A DNA stretch of 36,832 nt from a virus: positions 1-36,832 of the IMG/VR virus record IMGVR_UViG_3300046009_011605. One strand, 5' to 3'. Of the stretch, positions 2,547 to 31,841 are shown one piece after another. A model generated the notes under the pieces. That model searched no databases, was not told where the DNA came from, and saw nothing but the letters and a program-made list of their open reading frames with translations. Position 1 is the stretch's first letter. Every line of letters starts with the position of its first letter. Made by a program: the position numbers and the translations under genes.

Positions 2547-3125
2547 ATGTCTAATGAACCGAAAAAAGGCTGTGGATGTGGCAAGAAAAAAGAAAACACC
2601 GAACCAAACCCCCAACAATTTCGTTCCGTGGTGAATGAACAAAAGGGTACTTCTGAGATAAAAAAAAACTTAACGATGGTTCAAAGTTTCGCTTCGGCGA
2701 TAGCTTCAAGAGGGATAACCAACAAAAAAATTGATAAGTTTGAAAAAAAACTCAGAGTACTGAGTTGTTTTGGAAATGCACACAGCGGTGGTCAACTTCC
2801 CCCATGTGAACATTTAAGAAAAAGTTCTACTGAAGGAAAGTACTTTTGTGGTGGCTGTGGTTGCGGTGACAAGCCAATGACATGGCTTTTGGCAGAAGGC
2901 GATAAGTATTCGAAGCTTGACTATCCAAAGCTCCAATGCCCTCTAAAGATGCCAGGATTCTCAAATTACGAGAAATCAACAGAAGACGAAGCCATCCCTC
3001 CAATTACACGAAGATTTTATATAGAGAATATGCCACAAGAAGAAGTGGAAAAGGTATCTGTAACTACACCCGAGATGCCAGTAGAAATTAAAGATTCTCA
3101 AATATCAGAAGAGAAAAAAGAATAA
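2547..3125 (+). CDS. Cysteine-motif hypothetical protein, possible metal binder
   Basis: A 192-aa protein preceded by a good Shine-Dalgarno sequence (AAGGAG, 2536-2541). The N-terminus carries GCGCGKKK, and the centre has single cysteines followed by FCGGCGCGD at about residues 99-107 and a CPLKMPGF element near 131-138. Clustered CxC and CxxC pairs suggest zinc or iron-sulfur binding, but no catalytic family is recognised. The C-terminal 50 residues are acidic and low in complexity. It sits immediately upstream of neck gene gp13. It could be a minor virion protein or a small regulator; the sequence does not decide. Confidence 0.55.
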   Translation: MSNEPKKGCGCGKKKENTEPNPQQFRSVVNEQKGTSEIKKNLTMVQSFASAIASRGITNKKIDKFEKKLRVLSCFGNAHSGGQLPPCEHLRKSSTEGKYFCGGCGCGDKPMTWLLAEGDKYSKLDYPKLQCPLKMPGFSNYEKSTEDEAIPPITRRFYIENMPQEEVEKVSVTTPEMPVEIKDSQISEEKKE

Positions 3126-3128
3126 ATA
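3121..3128 (+). promoter_or_regulatory. Weak late-promoter-like element (AATAAATA) upstream of gp13
   Basis: AATAAATA overlaps the stop codon of the preceding gene and ends 13 bases before the gp13 ATG. The predicted start at about 3134 would leave an 8-base leader containing GGTG. One base differs from TATAAATA and the motif can arise by chance next to a TAA stop, so confidence is low. Confidence 0.3.
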
Positions 3129-3141
3129 ATTCCGGTGCAAT

Positions 3142-3951
3142 ATGCCGGAAATAAGATCAAGACAAGATTTAATCGAATACGCATTACGCAAGCTGGGAAA
3201 ACCAGTAATAGAAATCAATGTCGATTATCAGCAAGCTGAGGATCGACTGGATGAAGCTTTGGAACTCTTCAGAGAAAGACACTTTGATGGAGTCATCCAA
3301 GGCTATATTCCATATTCAATTACTGATGAAGATAATGTTAAACGATATATCAATACTGATAATATCGGTCCATTAAGTGGTGTTTCTGGTGATTCCCCAT
3401 CTGGAAAAGATATAGTAAGCGTAATTCGAATATTTCCATACGACCCATTAAGCATGTCAAATAGCATGTTTAACATCAAGTATCAATGGGCATTGACTGA
3501 TTATTTCCAAATCAACCGTGGCTTATACGGTGTTCAGGATCTTCCGATTGCAAACTATGATAATGCAATGCGATATATTCAATTGATGAATCAATATTTT
3601 TCCCCAGAAAAAGCAATCGGATTCAATAAAACATCAAACAGAATATACATTCACGGTGACTGGACTACTGATTTGAAAGCTGGTCAACAGTTGATGTTCG
3701 AAGCATATTTTGCACTTGATCCCGAAAAGTTCACTCAGATATACGATGATCGTGTACTAAAGAAATATTTTACTCAACTTCTAAAAAGACAATGGGGTAT
3801 GAATCTGTCGAAATTTGAAGGTATTCCATTACCGGGTGGCGGCACGCTCCGTGGGGAAAAGTTAGTTGCAGAAGCCCAAATAGAAATTGACAAAATAGAA
3901 GCAGAAATAATGACATCCTTTGAAGGTCCTCCGACTTTCCAAATTGGTTAA
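3142..3951 (+). CDS. 13: Neck protein gp13
   Basis: A 269-aa protein resembling T4 gp13 (309 aa), which with gp14 closes the filled head and joins it to the tail. The N-terminus matches the family pattern: a short helix, then YALRKLGKPVIEINV and the DEALELFRERHFDG element at residues 37-50. The C-terminus retains LPGGGTLRGEKLVAEAQIE near 230-248, equivalent to the T4 LPGGVTIDGQRLIEEA stretch, and ends GPPTFQIG. The next gene begins 2 bases after its stop, and gp14, gp16 and gp17 follow in T4 order. It is about 40 residues shorter than the T4 protein, the loss being in the middle. Confidence 0.93.
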   Translation: MPEIRSRQDLIEYALRKLGKPVIEINVDYQQAEDRLDEALELFRERHFDGVIQGYIPYSITDEDNVKRYINTDNIGPLSGVSGDSPSGKDIVSVIRIFPYDPLSMSNSMFNIKYQWALTDYFQINRGLYGVQDLPIANYDNAMRYIQLMNQYFSPEKAIGFNKTSNRIYIHGDWTTDLKAGQQLMFEAYFALDPEKFTQIYDDRVLKKYFTQLLKRQWGMNLSKFEGIPLPGGGTLRGEKLVAEAQIEIDKIEAEIMTSFEGPPTFQIG

Positions 3952-14624: not shown

Positions 14625-14632
14625 CATAAATA
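14625..14632 (+). promoter_or_regulatory. Late promoter element CATAAATA giving a leaderless start
   Basis: CATAAATA directly follows the gp23 terminator and ends 5 bases before the ATG at 14638. With T4 late spacing the transcript would begin at the A of the ATG itself. No Shine-Dalgarno sequence is present. The terminator immediately upstream makes an independent promoter here necessary or at least useful. Confidence 0.55.
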
Positions 14633-14637
14633 CTAAT

Positions 14638-15156
14638 ATGACAGATTGTAATCCTAATTCAGTTCGTGGTAATGCACCAGAAAATACCAATTATCTGGTA
14701 AATAATTTTTTTGTTTTTGATATTGATAAAATTCCAACTTTCAGATATTATGTACAATCTGCAAATATACCCATGCTTACCTCAAGGGCTATAAACCAAC
14801 CAGCAATTTTCAGTACATTTCCTAAGATACCAACTACAAGTTTTATTTTCGATGATCTACAGGTATCTTTCCTTTTAGATAATGAAATGAAAAGCTGGAA
14901 GGAAATCTATAATTGGGTACGATCTCTTGGAAATATGGAAGATTTTAAGGATGCAATAAAACATAAAGATAAATTTTCAAATGGTTCTTTATTGATAACA
15001 AATAGTACATATAAACCAATTATGAAAATTATGTTTTATAATTTATTTCCAATCACACTTGGATCAGTAAATTTTGCCGTAACTTCCACCACAACTGAAC
15101 CGATCGTAACCAGCGTGAATTTTGCATATTCTCATTTTGAACTTATTGATATATGA
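14638..15156 (+). CDS. Second tail-tube-fold protein (gp19/gp54-type)
   Basis: A 172-aa protein with the pattern of the T4 tail tube superfamily: an N-terminal strand, YYVQSANIPMLTSRAINQP near residues 38-56, then SFLLDNEMKSWKEIYNWVRS near 79-98, and a final alternating strand VTSVNFAYSHFELI. It is distinct from the gp19 encoded at 8406. In T4 the tube-like baseplate proteins gp48 and gp54 start the tube; this protein could play such a role or be a minor tube paralogue. It lies alone between the gp23 terminator and uvsY. The fold is fairly sure, the exact role is not. Confidence 0.7.
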   Translation: MTDCNPNSVRGNAPENTNYLVNNFFVFDIDKIPTFRYYVQSANIPMLTSRAINQPAIFSTFPKIPTTSFIFDDLQVSFLLDNEMKSWKEIYNWVRSLGNMEDFKDAIKHKDKFSNGSLLITNSTYKPIMKIMFYNLFPITLGSVNFAVTSTTTEPIVTSVNFAYSHFELIDI

Positions 15157-18614: not shown

Positions 18615-18640
18615 GATTTTATTTTTATTTGTGCTACAAT
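18613..18640 (+). promoter_or_regulatory. Host sigma70-type promoter for gp55, near-leaderless
   Basis: TTGATT (-35, 18613-18618), a 16-base spacer and TACAAT (-10, 18635-18640), preceded by TG one base upstream (extended -10). Transcription would start at about 18647, 2-4 bases before the ATG at 18650. It does not resemble the NATAAATA late elements, which makes sense because gp55 must be made before late promoters can be used. Confidence 0.6.
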
Positions 18641-18649
18641 ATATTGATC

Positions 18650-19171
18650 ATGGCAAAACAACGAACACATTACATAGACAACAAAGAATTCTACAAACAG
18701 ATGGTCGCTTGGAAAAAAGAGGTCAAAGCAGCTGAAGACAGCGATGACCCTCGCCCACCAATAACAACTTACATTGGTGAGTGTATAATGAAAATAGCGG
18801 AACATTTGTCACAAAAGCCAAATTTTGCCAACTACCCCTTCAAAGAAGAAATGATCGGAGATGGAATAGAAAATTGTCTGATGTATGCTCACAATTTTAA
18901 TCCAAGAAAATCAAAGAACCCATTCTCTTATTTTACTCAAATAATATACTTTGCTTTCTTAAGAAGAATAGAAAAAGAAAAGAAACAAGCGTATGTGAAA
19001 TTAAAAATGACAGAATTATTAGATGACGGCACAGTTCACAGGTGGTTAAAACACAATTATCTTGAAGAAGACAGTAAAGAAGAAAACCCCCTTATTGATA
19101 TAATGAAGATGTCCGAAGGATTTGAAAAAGTTAAAAAAGCAAAGAAAAAAGTAAAGAAAAGAAAAAAATGA
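18650..19171 (+). CDS. 55: Late-promoter sigma factor gp55
   Basis: A 173-aa protein matching T4 gp55 (185 aa), the small sigma factor that directs RNA polymerase to TATAAATA late promoters with the gp45 clamp. Shared pattern: HYIDNKEFYKQMVAWKKEV near residues 7-25, KIAEHLSQKPNF, EEMIGDGIENCL near 68-79 and NPRKSKNPFSYFTQ near 87-100, corresponding to a reduced sigma region 2. The ATG at 18650 is preferred over the upstream in-frame TTG at 18629, because the -10 promoter element lies between them. The C-terminus is Lys-rich. It overlaps gp47 by 4 bases. Confidence 0.92.
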   Translation: MAKQRTHYIDNKEFYKQMVAWKKEVKAAEDSDDPRPPITTYIGECIMKIAEHLSQKPNFANYPFKEEMIGDGIENCLMYAHNFNPRKSKNPFSYFTQIIYFAFLRRIEKEKKQAYVKLKMTELLDDGTVHRWLKHNYLEEDSKEENPLIDIMKMSEGFEKVKKAKKKVKKRKK

Positions 19172-22530: not shown

Positions 22531-22538
22531 AATAAATA
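22531..22538 (+). promoter_or_regulatory. Late-promoter-like element (AATAAATA) giving a leaderless start
   Basis: The element directly follows the gp46 stop and ends 6 bases before the ATG at 22545. The predicted +1 (22544) is one base before the start codon. No Shine-Dalgarno sequence is present. It would allow late expression of the fibre gene apart from the gp46/47 operon. Confidence 0.45.
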
Positions 22539-22541
22539 TAG

Positions 22542-25552
<3,011 letters not shown>

Positions 25553-25565
25553 TTGGAGATAATCT

Positions 25566-25739
25566 ATGCCTAAAATTTCAAATGACTATAACGAAGAGCC
25601 AGAAAAAAGAAAGTCAAAGAAATCCATAAACAAGAAAAAAAGGCGTGGACAAAGACACCATGTTCGTGATATACTGAGAGAGTTGAAAACTACAAATGGA
25701 GATGAATATTATGACTACATCGATGAAATCGAGAAGTAA
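25566..25739 (+). CDS. Small charged protein upstream of gp45
   Basis: A 57-aa open frame (MPKISNDYNEEPEKRKSKK...) with a basic centre and an acidic, Tyr-rich end. It has a GGAG ribosome site 9 bases before its ATG and fills the gap before the clamp gene, overlapping the gp45 start region by 29 bases. Small genes (the 45.x group) lie in this position in T4, but no clear homology is claimed. Real expression is likely from spacing and ribosome site. Confidence 0.6.
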   Translation: MPKISNDYNEEPEKRKSKKSINKKKRRGQRHHVRDILRELKTTNGDEYYDYIDEIEK

Positions 25740-26403
25740 CAGTTCTAGCAGTAACTCAGTGAGAATCAGCAAGAACACTCTTTCTATTCTCAAAAATTTT
25801 TCCACCATCAATTCAAATCTTCTGGTCCGTCCGGGAAACAAAATTTCCACGATCGCACCCGGAAAGAATATGATGGCAGAAGCAATTGTTGACGAGACTT
25901 TTGAGACACAGTTTGGAATTTGGGATCTCAACAAGTTCCTTGGTGTTGTTTCTCTCTTTACAGATCCAACTATGACATTCAATGAAAAGTATGTGGATAT
26001 TCAAGGAGCAGACTCAAAAGTAAAGTATTTTTACTCTGAGCCTAGTCTTCTTACAGTCCCCACAAAGTCTGTAAAGATGCCTGAGACCGTTTCTGTGTTC
26101 TCTGTGTATCAAGACAGTTTTACTCAAATGTTGAAGGCTTCTTCTGTGCTTCAGCTGCCGCAGATAACTTTCATCAGTGATGAAAACGGTCTCTCTGCGA
26201 AACTTCATGATGAAGATGACGAAACTTCGAATAATTACACAGTAAGCCTTGGTGATTCAAGCACTGAATTTGAAGTCACATTCGATATGGAACATCTTCG
26301 ACTTCTTCCCGGAGATTATGAAGTTACCGTGTCTCATGGTCCTGTTGTGCAATTCAAGAATCTTTCGATCGATCTTACCTACTGGATCGCAGTCAAGAGC
26401 TAA
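25711..26403 (+). CDS. 45: Sliding clamp gp45
   Basis: A 230-aa protein matching T4 gp45 (228 aa), the trimeric DNA polymerase clamp and activator of late transcription. Family pattern: ISKNTLSILKNFSTINSNLL near residues 18-37, the IWDLNKFLGVVSLF strand-helix near 70-83, and LRLLPGDYEVTVS near the C-terminus. Start codons are possible at 25696, 25702, 25711 and 25723. The one at 25711 is chosen because GGAG lies 9 bases upstream (25698-25701). The N-terminus has about 17 extra residues rich in Ser compared with T4. It is followed after 2 bases by gp44. Confidence 0.92.
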   Translation: MTTSMKSRSNSSSSNSVRISKNTLSILKNFSTINSNLLVRPGNKISTIAPGKNMMAEAIVDETFETQFGIWDLNKFLGVVSLFTDPTMTFNEKYVDIQGADSKVKYFYSEPSLLTVPTKSVKMPETVSVFSVYQDSFTQMLKASSVLQLPQITFISDENGLSAKLHDEDDETSNNYTVSLGDSSTEFEVTFDMEHLRLLPGDYEVTVSHGPVVQFKNLSIDLTYWIAVKS

Positions 26404-26405
26404 TT

Positions 26406-27341
26406 ATGAGTGAAATCAATCTCTTTGTAGAAAAATATCGTCCCAAGACAATTGAGGAATGTATTCTCCCGGAAAGTACAAAGAAAACTTTCCGGGAGAT
26501 TGTGAAATCCGGTGAGTGTCAAAATCTTCTTCTTTCTGGAAAGCCGGGAACGGGAAAGACAAGCGTTGCAAAAGCACTTTGCAATGATCTTGATTGTGAT
26601 TGGATCATGATCAATTGTTCTGAAGATGGAAACATCGACACACTTCGCACCAAGATTCGTACTTTCGCAAGCACTGTATCCCTGTCAGATAAGAGAAAGG
26701 TTGTTATTCTCGATGAATTTGATTATTCAAATGCATCCAGCATTCAACCGGCACTTCGTGGTGCTATTGAAGAATTCGCAAAGAACTGTCGTTTTATTCT
26801 CACTTGTAATTACAAGAATCGTATCATCGAACCAATTCACTCCCGTTGCACAACCATTGAATTCAGTATTCCATCAAAAGAAAAACCAAAGATGGCAAAG
26901 GAATTCATGTCTCGTTGTGAAATGATTCTAGATGAAGAAGGTATCACATATGACATGAAAGTTCTTGCCGAACTCATTCTGAAGTATTTTCCTGATTTCC
27001 GAAAGATTCTGAATGAACTCCAAAGATACTCGGTGTCTGGTACTATTGATGTCGGAATCCTTGCAACACCTTCACAGAAAATAAATGATGTAATCAAGGC
27101 AATGAAGGAGAAGGATTTTCTGACCGTTCGGAAGTGGGTTGCAGGAAATATGGACAATTCACAGACAGACTTGTTCCGTGCAATTTATGATGGGCTATAC
27201 GAGCACCTTTCTCCAACGAGCATTCCAAACGCAATTCTTATTCTTGCTGAGTATCAATACAAGGCAGCGTTTGTTGCGGATCAAGAGATCAATACAGCTG
27301 CATGCATGGTTGAACTTATGATGTCATGTGAGTTTAAATAA
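26406..27341 (+). CDS. 44: Clamp-loader ATPase subunit gp44
   Basis: A 311-aa AAA+ ATPase matching T4 gp44 (319 aa), which with gp62 opens and loads the gp45 clamp. Motifs are intact: VEKYRPKTIEECILP near the N-terminus, Walker A GKPGTGKT (residues 45-52), Walker B VVILDEFD (99-106), sensor 1 TCNYKNR (133-139) and the SRC arginine-finger motif (146-148). It lies between gp45 and gp62 with a 1-base overlap downstream. T4 rpbA, which lies between gp45 and gp44, is absent here. Confidence 0.96.
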   Translation: MSEINLFVEKYRPKTIEECILPESTKKTFREIVKSGECQNLLLSGKPGTGKTSVAKALCNDLDCDWIMINCSEDGNIDTLRTKIRTFASTVSLSDKRKVVILDEFDYSNASSIQPALRGAIEEFAKNCRFILTCNYKNRIIEPIHSRCTTIEFSIPSKEKPKMAKEFMSRCEMILDEEGITYDMKVLAELILKYFPDFRKILNELQRYSVSGTIDVGILATPSQKINDVIKAMKEKDFLTVRKWVAGNMDNSQTDLFRAIYDGLYEHLSPTSIPNAILILAEYQYKAAFVADQEINTAACMVELMMSCEFK

Positions 27342-27715
27342 TGGAACTGAAAGATTATCTCAATAGCATAAATCATGATAAAACTCCTTTGATGGACAAC
27401 CATCCAGAGGCTGAGAAGGCATATGTTCCCTTTGTGGTGAACAGATGCCTTTCTTATTTTCCAGATACTTTGCTTTATGCAAACACAATGAACTCAAATA
27501 TCACAATCCCAAAGAAACTTCAATTTGATTATTTAAGGCTTTCTGTCAGATCGCGTAAACGATTCAGTAAGTGGCTGAAAAACGAGATGTCTGATGAAGT
27601 AAAGTCCATAAAGGAATATTTCGGATATTCCACCCAAAAGGCACTGGAGATACAGCATCTCCTTACAAAAAACGACAAAAAGGCCATTTTAGAGGCTCTA
27701 AATAGGGGTGGCTAA
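27341..27715 (+). CDS. 62: Clamp-loader small subunit gp62 (short form)
   Basis: A 124-aa protein in the gp62 slot, overlapping gp44 by one base. Pattern shared with T4 gp62 (187 aa): FVVNRCLSYFPDTLLYANTM near residues 27-46, FDYLRLSVRSRKRFSKWLK near 64-82, then a helix ending in LLTKND. It is about 60 residues shorter than the T4 protein, missing the N-terminal and part of the C-terminal region. Identification rests on these stretches and on operon order gp45-gp44-gp62-regA. Confidence 0.88.
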   Translation: MELKDYLNSINHDKTPLMDNHPEAEKAYVPFVVNRCLSYFPDTLLYANTMNSNITIPKKLQFDYLRLSVRSRKRFSKWLKNEMSDEVKSIKEYFGYSTQKALEIQHLLTKNDKKAILEALNRGG

Positions 27716-27726
27716 CATATAAAATT

Positions 27727-27734
27727 TATAAATA
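27727..27734 (+). promoter_or_regulatory. Consensus late-promoter element TATAAATA upstream of regA
   Basis: A perfect match to the T4 late element in the short gp62-regA gap. Predicted start is about 27740, giving a 26-base leader to the regA ATG at 27766. T4 regA is mainly early/middle, so late control here would be unusual; the downstream glycosyltransferase and fibre genes could be the true beneficiaries. Confidence 0.5.
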
Positions 27735-27765
27735 AATGCGTACTATATGAATAAAGGTGCGCACA

Positions 27766-28179
27766 ATGGAAAATGAAGATATTTTTGAAGGTTATGGTGT
27801 GGAAGTAAAATTAAACGACCCAGAAAACTTCCTAAAAATTAAAGAGACTCTTACAAGAATGGGAGTCTCGTCTAAGAATCAAAATAAACTATATCAATCG
27901 TGTCATATTCTACACAAGAGGGGTAGATATGCAATATTACATTTTAAGGAACTTCTTGCTCTTGATGGGCTGGAAAGTGATGCTGATGAAACCGACATCG
28001 GTAGAAGAAATGTTATAACTGCACTCTTGGCAGAGTGGGGATTATTGGATATAATAGACAAATCAAAAGCGTCAGAACCTGTAATAAGCATAAAACAGTT
28101 AAAAATAATTCCACATAAAGAAAAGGGACAGTGGGAATTGATACCTAAATACCATGTTGGAAAGAAAAAGTATCAATAA
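27766..28179 (+). CDS. regA: Translational repressor RegA
   Basis: A 137-aa protein very close to T4 RegA (122 aa). RegA binds AU-rich ribosome sites of early mRNAs, including those of the clamp operon and its own. The block FLKIKETLTRMGVSS near residues 22-36 and the YQSCHILHKRGRYAILHFKE block near 43-62 are nearly identical to T4, as is WELIPKYHVG near the C-terminus. The ATG at 27766 is chosen over the GTG at 27757 because an AAAGG ribosome site lies 8 bases upstream. T4 has DNA polymerase gp43 next; here a glycosyltransferase follows. Confidence 0.96.
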   Translation: MENEDIFEGYGVEVKLNDPENFLKIKETLTRMGVSSKNQNKLYQSCHILHKRGRYAILHFKELLALDGLESDADETDIGRRNVITALLAEWGLLDIIDKSKASEPVISIKQLKIIPHKEKGQWELIPKYHVGKKKYQ

Positions 28180-28194
28180 ATTCTGGAGTATATT

Positions 28195-29412
28195 ATGAAA
28201 AAAACAGTGGCTTTGTCCATGATTGTAAAGAATGAAACACATATCATTCTTGAATGCTTGAATTCAATCTATAAGCACATAGATTATTGGGTTATCGTAG
28301 ACACGGGTTCTACAGATGGAACCCAAGATATGATCAAAAATTTCTTTGCAGAAAAAGGAATCCCGGGTGAACTCCACGAAAGACCCTGGGTAAACTTTGG
28401 TCACAATAGATCTGAAGCATTGGCACTGTCTGATGGCAAAGCAGATTATATGTGGATGATTGATGCCGACGACTTCGTAGAAGGTGATTTTAAATATCCC
28501 GCGAATATGGAAGCGGATGGCTATGCAATCCGTATGGGCAGACCAGAATTTTCATGGTGGAGAACTCAAATATACAAGTCAGGAATGGGTTGGAAATATG
28601 AAGGTGTTTTGCATGAATATGCAACATGCTCTAAACAACCAACTAATATTCAAAAAATAGAGGGTAAATATTATGTCGTCGCAAGAACAGTAGGTGGAAG
28701 AAATATTGGTGTCGATCCAATAGAAAAGTATTCAAGAGATGCAATTACCCTTGAAGAAGCATTGAAAAACGAACCAAATAATACTAGATATCAATTTTAT
28801 TTGGGTCAATCGTATTTTGATTCTCAACAATGGGAAAAGGCTATTGAAGCTTATACAAAACGAGCCCAAATGGGTGGCTGGCCAGAAGAAATTTTTTACT
28901 CCTTGCTAAGAGTGGGTGTTGCAAAAGCAATGTTAAATCGCCCGTGGGAAGAAATTCAACAGGCATTTCTTGAATGTTATAATTCCAGACCAAACAGAGC
29001 AGAACCTCTGTATCATATAGCAAGAATTTATAGAATGAATGGTAAACACGGGTTGGCATATATTTTTGCTAAAATGGCAGCTAATATACCCTATCCGAAA
29101 GAAGATATATTATTCGTTGTAGATGAGATCTATACTTTCTCTGCATTAGACGAGCTTGGATCATCCGCATTTTATGCCGGGTATGTACAAGAAGGATATG
29201 ACGCATGTAAAAAACTGATTTCTGAAAATAGAGTTCCTGATGCGCATAAAGAAAGAGTAAATAACAATATGAAGCACTATGATGCTGCCATGAGTCAAAT
29301 AAAAATGATGCAAGCTCAATATCAAGCCAAAATACAAGAAGCTAAAATCGAACAAAAATTAGAAAACAGAAAAGCGAGAAGAGCAAAAGAGAAGCTGTCT
29401 CGAAGTAGATAA
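28195..29412 (+). CDS. GT2-family glycosyltransferase with TPR-like C-terminal part
   Basis: A 405-aa protein. The N-terminal GT-A domain begins LSMIVKNE, followed by VDTGSTDGTQ (residues 37-46) and a DxD-type MIDADDF near 88-94, the nucleotide-sugar and metal site of family 2. From about residue 180 helical pairs of TPR type follow (YQFYLGQSYFDSQQWEKAIE near 201-220), then a Gln/Lys-rich tail. It has a GGAG ribosome site. It lies between regA and fibre genes, including Gly-Pro-Thr collagen-like ones, so glycosylation of virion fibres is a reasonable inference. DNA or host-glycan modification are alternatives. Confidence 0.85.
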   Translation: MKKTVALSMIVKNETHIILECLNSIYKHIDYWVIVDTGSTDGTQDMIKNFFAEKGIPGELHERPWVNFGHNRSEALALSDGKADYMWMIDADDFVEGDFKYPANMEADGYAIRMGRPEFSWWRTQIYKSGMGWKYEGVLHEYATCSKQPTNIQKIEGKYYVVARTVGGRNIGVDPIEKYSRDAITLEEALKNEPNNTRYQFYLGQSYFDSQQWEKAIEAYTKRAQMGGWPEEIFYSLLRVGVAKAMLNRPWEEIQQAFLECYNSRPNRAEPLYHIARIYRMNGKHGLAYIFAKMAANIPYPKEDILFVVDEIYTFSALDELGSSAFYAGYVQEGYDACKKLISENRVPDAHKERVNNNMKHYDAAMSQIKMMQAQYQAKIQEAKIEQKLENRKARRAKEKLSRSR

Positions 29413-29415
29413 ATA
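29408..29415 (+). promoter_or_regulatory. Late-promoter-like element (GATAAATA) overlapping a hairpin
   Basis: GATAAATA spans the end of the glycosyltransferase gene and the first 3 bases of a hairpin stem. Predicted +1 is 29421, the first base of the hairpin loop, so a late transcript would lack the 5' arm entirely. It has one mismatch to TATAAATA. Confidence 0.5.
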
Positions 29416-29433
29416 TTCCTATCAGAGGAATAT
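29413..29433 (+). promoter_or_regulatory. Hairpin hiding the ribosome binding site of the RCC1 adhesin gene
   Basis: A perfect 8-base-pair stem (ATATTCCT 29413-29420, AGGAATAT 29426-29433) with loop ATCAG. The ribosome site AGAGGA (29424-29429) lies in the loop end and 3' arm, 6 bases before the ATG at 29436. Readthrough RNA from upstream would hide the site; RNA begun at the overlapping late element would not. Confidence 0.7.
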
Positions 29434-29435
29434 AA

Positions 29436-31841
29436 ATGTCTAATAACTACGATATATCAATAAAAAGAGGTATAGGATATAAACTTCATTTTAATTATTT
29501 AAATGAAGATAATACACCAGTGGATTTATCAAACACCACTGGTGTTTTTACGGTAAAAAGGTATCCTTCCTCTAATGTCGGAACGCTAATTTGTACTCAG
29601 CAGGGAATAACTGCAACCTTCATTGCGAATGATAATAATGGATATACTTTATTTTCTGCAATAGAAGCAATAAAATTCAACACAAATGAATATGGTGTTT
29701 CTGGAAATACAGGCAGTATATTAATTAGTATACCAGAACAAATAACACATTATGTCGCAGACGGAAGATATCTGTTTAATTTAGTTTTAGGCTTTACCAC
29801 CGGAAATGTAGAATTACTTTCCGGAAGATTAGATTGCAATGATAATGTTTTTGCAGGACCTATTTTGCCAATAATAGGACCAACTGGTTCTACAGGACCT
29901 AAACCTTCAATTCGTCCGTTTGTCGTATCCTCCAGTTCTAGAGCATATGCATTACAAGAAGATGATACAATAATTTATTGGGGTAATATTGTAGCAGATA
30001 ATTTATATTCATATAGAACGGGAATCATTCCCGATGTAACAGCGGATCATATCAGAATAACTCCAAGTGGAATTATTGTGATATTGAATGAAGAGACGCC
30101 TGAAGGAGAAAACACAAATCTTAAATTTATAACACAGGATGATGGAATATATGTCGGGCAAGGTATAAGTGCAGAAGGAATGATAATCCCAAGAAGTGAA
30201 AATTTAAAAAAGATCAAAGATGTAGTTTTAACAGAAAAACATGGTGTAGCATTACAAGAAGATGGAACTGTTGTGGTTTGGGGATTAAATTGGGCTAGGA
30301 CAGAAAATGAAAACACACCAGCAGATTTTCCGATAGGAATTACATTTGAAAAATTATCAGCGGGTGCTAACCATGTACTTGGATTAAAATATGATGGAAC
30401 AGTGGTGGCATGGGGAGATGACGAATATGAACAATCCAATGTTCCTGAAGATTTGACAGATGTAGTAGAAATTTCAGCGGGTATTAATTTTAGTCTTGCA
30501 CGAAAATCAGATAATACTGTTATTTGTTGGGGTGGAGGAAATAGCGGAATATGCAATGAATATCCACTTCCAGAAGGAGCAACTTATTCTAAACTGTCTG
30601 CAGGTGATGATTATTATTTGCTTTTGAGTTCCGGTAGAACATTGACAATAATTCCACCTGACCGCCACCCGATTCCAGTAAGCACAAGAAAATTTAAAGA
30701 TATTTTTGCCGGTTATGATTTTTATGTCACGATTGAAGATGCAAATTCTACTGGAACAAATTCAAGAACAGAAAATACAATAAATGCTTTCACCACAAAT
30801 GAAGGTGAAACTTATGGAATTCCTAGTACAGGACTAACCGGAAACTTTGTAGCAATTACATCTTTCATGACGGTTGTTGGTAAAACTGGTGGAAACATTT
30901 CTATTCATTATGATACATCTGATTATCCAAACGGTGTTTTGGAGATGGATCACATACCAAATGTATCTTCTATAAAAAAGATAGCAACTGGGTTGGATAA
31001 CACTGCAATAGTTTTAGATAATAATGGCACAATTTATCCGTGGGGAAACAATAAAGAAAATCTCATCTCTATTCCATACAATGGATATACACTAACAAAA
31101 CAAATAGAAATTGGAAATCAGCACGCAATATTACTCGGAAAAGACGGTCAAGTAAGATGCATAGGAAGAAATTCTTTTGGTCAATGCGATGTTCCACAAA
31201 ATTTATCAAATGTAGCTTCAGTTTGGGCAGGTAGAAATTTCAGCGGAGTGATTAAAAATGACGGAACAATAGTTGGCTGGGGAGAAACTAGAGGTTATAT
31301 AAATTCCTCCACTGTTTTCTCAGATTCTATTTTGATGCCAAAATTAAATTCAGCAGGAATCACAGGAGCGAAGAAAGTATCTGTCGGGTTCAGTGAAATC
31401 TTTGTCCTTACAGACAGAGGAACAATCATAGGAATTACAGGGGCTTCTTGGGCAGCAGAATCAAATCAACCCGGATCCACATATGTAAATTTCTTTGCGG
31501 GTAATTTCTATACCAGCCAAGGATACACATCTGGTATCTCTTTAAGTAACATTAAACATTTATCAGATCAAAATCAAAACACCAGATATCATTTTGCAAT
31601 ATCAAATTCTGGAGTCATTTATGGTTGGGGTCATAATTCAATATCTCCTGCAAGAAATGAAATATTTGGAACACCAACGGGAGGTGCAGAGGATATTGCC
31701 GCTGGTCTTACATTTAAACATGTAGAAAAAGGACAAGGATTAATTTCTGCCATAAATGAAGATAACACCATAACAGTATGGGGAGAAATACAGGGCTATT
31801 CACTAGGCATATTACCAGAGGTATTAAAAAGTGAAGATTAA
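29436..31841 (+). CDS. RCC1-repeat adhesin with BppU-like N-terminus
   Basis: An 801-aa protein. Residues 1-150 resemble the N-terminal domain of phage baseplate upper protein (BppU), a strand-rich attachment module. A short GPTGSTGP link follows. From about residue 158 to the end, roughly ten units of the type L-x-x-D-G-T-V-x-x-W-G (VALQEDGTVVVWG, LGLKYDGTVVAWGDD, IKNDGTIVGWG, FAISNSGVIYGWG) mark RCC1-type beta-propeller repeats. The N-terminal domain would dock to the virion and the propeller would face the host. Its ribosome site is inside a hairpin with an overlapping late promoter. The fold is well supported; the ligand is unknown. Confidence 0.8.
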   Translation: MSNNYDISIKRGIGYKLHFNYLNEDNTPVDLSNTTGVFTVKRYPSSNVGTLICTQQGITATFIANDNNGYTLFSAIEAIKFNTNEYGVSGNTGSILISIPEQITHYVADGRYLFNLVLGFTTGNVELLSGRLDCNDNVFAGPILPIIGPTGSTGPKPSIRPFVVSSSSRAYALQEDDTIIYWGNIVADNLYSYRTGIIPDVTADHIRITPSGIIVILNEETPEGENTNLKFITQDDGIYVGQGISAEGMIIPRSENLKKIKDVVLTEKHGVALQEDGTVVVWGLNWARTENENTPADFPIGITFEKLSAGANHVLGLKYDGTVVAWGDDEYEQSNVPEDLTDVVEISAGINFSLARKSDNTVICWGGGNSGICNEYPLPEGATYSKLSAGDDYYLLLSSGRTLTIIPPDRHPIPVSTRKFKDIFAGYDFYVTIEDANSTGTNSRTENTINAFTTNEGETYGIPSTGLTGNFVAITSFMTVVGKTGGNISIHYDTSDYPNGVLEMDHIPNVSSIKKIATGLDNTAIVLDNNGTIYPWGNNKENLISIPYNGYTLTKQIEIGNQHAILLGKDGQVRCIGRNSFGQCDVPQNLSNVASVWAGRNFSGVIKNDGTIVGWGETRGYINSSTVFSDSILMPKLNSAGITGAKKVSVGFSEIFVLTDRGTIIGITGASWAAESNQPGSTYVNFFAGNFYTSQGYTSGISLSNIKHLSDQNQNTRYHFAISNSGVIYGWGHNSISPARNEIFGTPTGGAEDIAAGLTFKHVEKGQGLISAINEDNTITVWGEIQGYSLGILPEVLKSED

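Follow-up and report, generated by a model that had tools for sequence, protein, structure and literature searches.

A late promoter element in a start-hiding hairpin, a probable gene e-type switch before a tail-type gene of uncultured T4-like phages

The leader of a putative tail appendage gene in an uncultured T4-like phage probably works in cis as an on/off switch like that of T4 gene e. Such start-hiding late-promoter logic has been known from T4 since the 1980s, and an earlier note on this DNA had read the leader in this way, as a late promoter set in a hairpin that hides the Shine-Dalgarno (SD) sequence; this core reading is now supported by the relatives of the phage, by its gp55 and gp45 genes and by a T4 control. 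The window, that is the whole stretch of 36,832 nucleotides analysed here, is a 36.8-kb part of the phage genome, and a 76-kb contig (L001, also G001) belongs to the same virus, with 99.975% identity over 15.75 kb. Its genes run in one direction, beginning with neck, terminase, sheath, tubes, portal, protease, scaffold, capsid, UvsY and helicase, followed by gp55, gp47, gp46, fibre, gp45, gp44, gp62, RegA and a glycosyltransferase, then the controlled gene with its ATG at 29436 and finally collagen-type fibre genes. The gp55-type late sigma factor gene lies at 18629-19171 on the + strand (phrog_234, E 4e-58), and the genes for the gp45 clamp (25696-26403), gp44, gp62 and RegA together occupy 25696-28179 of the same strand. 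The earlier note had placed replication genes upstream of the switch; the gene directly upstream is instead that of a family 2 glycosyltransferase with TPR (28195-29412, + strand), which does end the gp45-44-62-regA operon.

The controlled gene (29436-31841, + strand) encodes 801 aa with an N-terminal phrog_1084 domain and RCC1-type repeats, and its product is a putative tail appendage protein. Domain matches bear out the repeats in what had been called an RCC1 adhesin, and the adhesin role is a guess, plausible from RCC1 repeats beside fibre genes, and not a result. When the full protein was used as query only the same virus was matched, and the RCC1 part was without counterpart in the genes of the relatives, which have only the N-terminal domain in common with it. 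The C-terminal part of this gene and of its counterparts in L002, L004, L006 and L007 consists of RCC1 repeats, gives a weak GDSL-esterase match or is absent, and such variation suggests module swapping in the tail appendage gene. The RCC1 gene is a single frame in the window and is broken into frames of 173 and 587 aa in G001 (65674-68079), either through an assembly error or as a switched-off variant.

The T4 late octamer TATAAATA occupies positions -13 to -6, and its T at -13 is poorly conserved (PMC1524935). A late promoter-like element, GATAAATA, lies at 29408-29415 on the + strand, with the TAA stop codon of the glycosyltransferase (29410-29412) inside it, and applying the same spacing puts the predicted transcription start at 29421. 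Both the element across the 5′ arm of the stem and the start on the first loop base had been proposed before; the former is borne out by the sequence, and the latter agrees with the published rule. The element resembles the T4 octamer with a variable -13 position, in a phage that encodes both gp55 and the gp45 clamp. The coding strand of the window has 11 copies of the motif NATAAATA vs one on the other strand, and 9 of these 11 are followed by a gene within 45 nt (4.6% expected, p 4e-11); judged by its placement, the motif therefore acts like a promoter of the phage.

The distances from late motif to ATG also cluster separately at 5-6 nt (16 of 123), with none at 7, and such sites lie at 14625-14638, 1858-1872 and 22531-22545 of the window and at the L008, L020, L021 and L026 junctions. 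By the T4 rule, late transcripts from these sites would start on the A of the ATG or 1 nt before it and would thus be leaderless. In L020 and L021 (6212-6260 in both) the start ATGACAGC pairs with GCTGTCA, which lies within the final codons of the preceding gene, and the late motif is enclosed between them.

Downstream of the element, RNAfold predicts the 8-bp stem that the earlier note had drawn before the ATG, with a five-base loop (z -2.06; 7 of 200 shuffles equally stable). Its 5′ arm, AUAUUCCU, spans 29413-29420 and overlaps the late element at 29413-29415, the loop AUCAG spans 29421-29425, and the 3′ arm, AGGAAUAU, spans 29426-29433 (all + strand); the Shine-Dalgarno AGAGGA at 29424-29429 lies mostly in the loop end and the 3′ arm. 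In the folds used for opening energies, a weak outer helix with UAGAUA (29406-29411, + strand) as its 5′ side pairs with 29437-29442 over the AUG. This outer helix was considered as a kept part of the structure and set aside, as it is only partly kept among relatives, with U-A replaced by C-G in L002 and the pairing broken in L005.

A late RNA starting by the T4 rule would lack the whole 5′ arm. We calculated the opening energy as the cost of unpairing the stretch between 14 nt ahead of the start codon and the last base of that codon, and the comparison of long and late-start transcripts that had been suggested for this leader came out as expected, with 11.15 kcal/mol for the read-through RNA vs 1.88 kcal/mol for the RNA from 29421. 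The start at 29436 has the highest occlusion among the 33 starts tested in the window. When the 8-base spacer alone was shuffled, 17 of 500 shuffles matched the read-through occlusion and 12 of 500 matched the difference, and with the upstream 40 nt shuffled as well the p value was about 0.02 (z 3.5). A shuffle p of about 0.02-0.03 at the 29436 site alone counts against the switch; the evidence beyond chance at 29413-29433 is moderate from this one site and strong once relatives are compared.

The same method was applied to T4, where e, segB, I-TevII, I-TevI, 26 and 49 were the top six of 27 late-motif genes, while 18, 22 and alt fell near the bottom, and the z of 3.5 in the window sits among the T4 cases (I-TevI 3.2, segB 3.7). 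Genes of T4-type phages published with hidden starts are e, soc, 49, I-TevI, I-TevII, I-TevIII, segB, mobE, 25, 26 and 39 (PMC3014915, PMC2988022), and the six leaders found here match most of that list. In the context used, soc (z 0.8) and I-TevIII had no outstanding occlusion in the T4 ranking. Of the two parallels that had been drawn earlier, T4 e therefore holds as the top-scoring gene and soc does not, and e, I-TevI and segB make the better set.

In T4 gene e, the 5′ strand of an inhibitory structure contains TATAAATA; late RNA starts beyond this strand and lacks it, and translation of the long early RNA is lower by about 100-fold (PMC3014915). The 29436 leader shares with the lysozyme gene e this promoter-in-5′-strand layout, through the overlap at 29413-29415, as well as the pairing of SD and/or AUG in the long RNA and the drop in opening energy upon late initiation (11.2 to 1.9 kcal/mol). 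Upstream of it, gp45-44-62-regA-glycosyltransferase run in the same direction and may share a transcript with it. It differs in belonging to a tail-type and not a lysis gene, in its upstream operon and in the stop codon inside the promoter element, and no sequence kinship to the T4 e leader was seen. T4 I-TevI, I-TevII and segB and Aeh1 mobE likewise have a late promoter adjoining a hairpin that covers the ribosome site when early or middle transcripts read through (PMC2988022); these are homing endonuclease genes, unlike the putative virion gene studied here. T4 soc, a virion gene as the 29436 gene would be, is on the published list of sequestered starts (PMC3014915, PMC2988022), but its occlusion was undetected in the context used here.

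On this model, read-through RNA from the gp45-44-62-regA-glycosyltransferase operon would carry both arms, so that the SD would be paired, and the AUG weakly so, and 30S subunits would be unable to load. Later, gp55 aided by the gp45 clamp would fire the late element and yield RNA from about 29421 without the 5′ arm, which would leave the ribosome site open and allow the virion protein to be made. Three parts of this model are inferred: that early transcripts read through, that a 5′ end forms at 29421 late in infection, and that the gene is silent before then. A pattern scan of the + strand found no convincing terminator between the operon genes and the 29436 gene, and sigma-70 promoter matches upstream (e.g. 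28027-28055, 11/12) were no commoner than in shuffles, so that early read-through is argued from analogy with T4. Searches of cultured phages gave only 13 remote protein matches to the glycosyltransferase (identity at most 36%) and no match at the DNA level, leaving no cultured relative with transcript data.

We compared the same junction in 80 viral loci that carry the glycosyltransferase. In the five near relatives (L002-L006, 74-78% protein identity) the motif, the stem and the SD are kept while the loop varies among AUCAG, AUUGG and AUUAG, and the only stem change is A-U to G-U; so small a set of near relatives, with so slight a change, counts against the switch. In L007 (65%) the stem stands in the same register and is made of other sequence, TAGATTAG/CTAATCTA; its loop holds the SD, and CTAAATA is placed so that the predicted late RNA drops seven of the eight 5′-arm bases. 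Stem and late motif thus persist as the switch would lead one to expect, and none of the near relatives keeps the gene while lacking both. A second hairpin group (L011, L035, L039, L046 and others) has no SD, and the AUG is buried in TGCTATAG/CTATGGCA just after TATAAATA. These arms occur in 11 of 12 distinct sequences with loops that vary in length and letters, and one of the 12 carries a C-G to G-C double change across the arms; no mismatched combination was seen. Of the compensatory stem changes that the earlier note had proposed to look for, one is therefore seen, in the AUG-hiding group, and none in L002-L006. The AUG-hiding group may represent a version of the device without a Shine-Dalgarno, where the AUG itself sits in the stem and the predicted late message is leaderless or nearly so. 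Where a dUTPase gene follows the glycosyltransferase, neither a late motif nor significant occlusion was found in eight usable cases, which serve as a negative control; the dUTPase was recognised by eye from its N-terminal sequence, and L045 and L066 were left out of the set.

Given this pattern, a chance origin, in which the A+T-rich end of the promoter (ATA) pairs accidentally with the SD and the AATAT that follows, is disfavoured and seems to us very improbable. Part of the stem is indeed dictated by the motif and SD context, and 17 of 500 spacer shuffles fold equally tightly; still, TTCCT is kept in L002-L006 despite the varying loop, L007 has built its stem from another sequence, and the enrichment over other late genes described below also speaks against accident. 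Nor do we give much credence to the inverted repeat being a protein site at the DNA level, an operator over the late promoter: inverted repeats over promoters often are operators, and the autorepressor I-TevI binds its own late promoter (PMC2988022), but the arm letters differ among relatives while complementarity to SD or AUG stays, which a sequence-specific protein would not favour.

The main rival is translational coupling, where a ribosome terminating on the glycosyltransferase opens the 5′ arm and the late element is merely an extra promoter; we consider it unlikely, though less so than the two readings above. The position of the stem directly behind the upstream stop, where a terminating ribosome could open it, is another point against the switch: the stop codon at 29410-29412 abuts the arm at 29413, a ribosome there would cover the arm, and the same holds in L002-L006. 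Among the relatives, however, the distance from stop to stem is not short and fixed, being 0 nt in the window and L002-L006, 5 in L007, 11 in L035, 13 in L046, 14 in L011 and about 15 in L039, whereas in all these cases the predicted late start lies within the 5′ arm or directly behind it; in gp5-type contigs such elements lie about 80 nt past the upstream stop. Coupling to early read-through would also mean an early virion protein. Coupling and the late-start switch may both act.

Across the junctions, the median difference between read-through and late opening energies is 5.9 kcal/mol vs 1.6 kcal/mol for 70 further late-motif genes on these contigs (p 8e-7), and shuffles that include the upstream region give a median p of 0.08 vs 0.64. 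Eight junctions (L027, L030, L032, L034, L036, L041, L042 and L043) have a late element immediately preceded by an intrinsic terminator; a start-hiding hairpin is absent from all eight and present at 16 of 21 junctions without a terminator (Fisher p 3e-4, rank test p 6e-5). Since the hairpin cut-off of 0.08 was chosen after the values were seen and the glycosyltransferase tree holds only 2-3 independent hairpin/terminator contrasts, including the sister pair L036 (terminator) and L046 (hairpin), mutual exclusion of the two devices at homologous junctions is suggestive. A terminator would likewise block late-gene expression from early transcripts, but it acts on transcription and not on translation as the 29436 hairpin would.

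The arrangement is found at other genes as well. In the window, a second case on the + strand (3121-3150) has AATAAATA at 3121-3128 and a stem at 3130-3136/3144-3150 (arms TTCCGGT/GCCGGAA) around the ATG at 3142 of a gp13-type gene, with a predicted late start at 3134 and opening energies of 9.9 vs 2.0 kcal/mol (8 of 500 shuffles). The genes upstream of it look late too, and a further point against the switch is that this case seems to lie downstream of another late gene, where early silence is unneeded. The third case (27727-27768, + strand) has TATAAATA at 27727-27734 and, in the same register, an 8-bp stem at 27737-27744/27756-27763 over the regA ribosome site (ATG 27766), with 9.2 vs 4.8 kcal/mol (2 of 500 shuffles); RegA may thus be raised late in infection via its own TATAAATA and stem. 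In other contigs, a generic pattern of motif, arm, arm and ATG matched 20 viral contigs vs 2 for a permuted arm. A first, looser stem pattern had given, among the matches listed, many unlike gene starts, and the pattern was tightened and given the permuted control. Some of its matches are the present junction in relatives and a few are due to chance; the rest stand before unrelated late genes, namely gp5-type hub genes and a tail-type gene after an apparent nuclease gene (names assigned by eye from the translations).

These observations carry a device described for a few T4 genes over to a tail-type gene in phages without a cultured host system, and at one junction they find it either conserved or reconstituted from other sequence. 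What they add is sequence replacement while the register stays, a variant that has the AUG in the stem and a very short leader, and an apparent exchange between hairpin and terminator. The comparison of opening energies on long and late-start RNA recovers most of the known T4 cases and is applicable to any T4-like genome, which makes testable how T4-like phages avoid making virion proteins too early.
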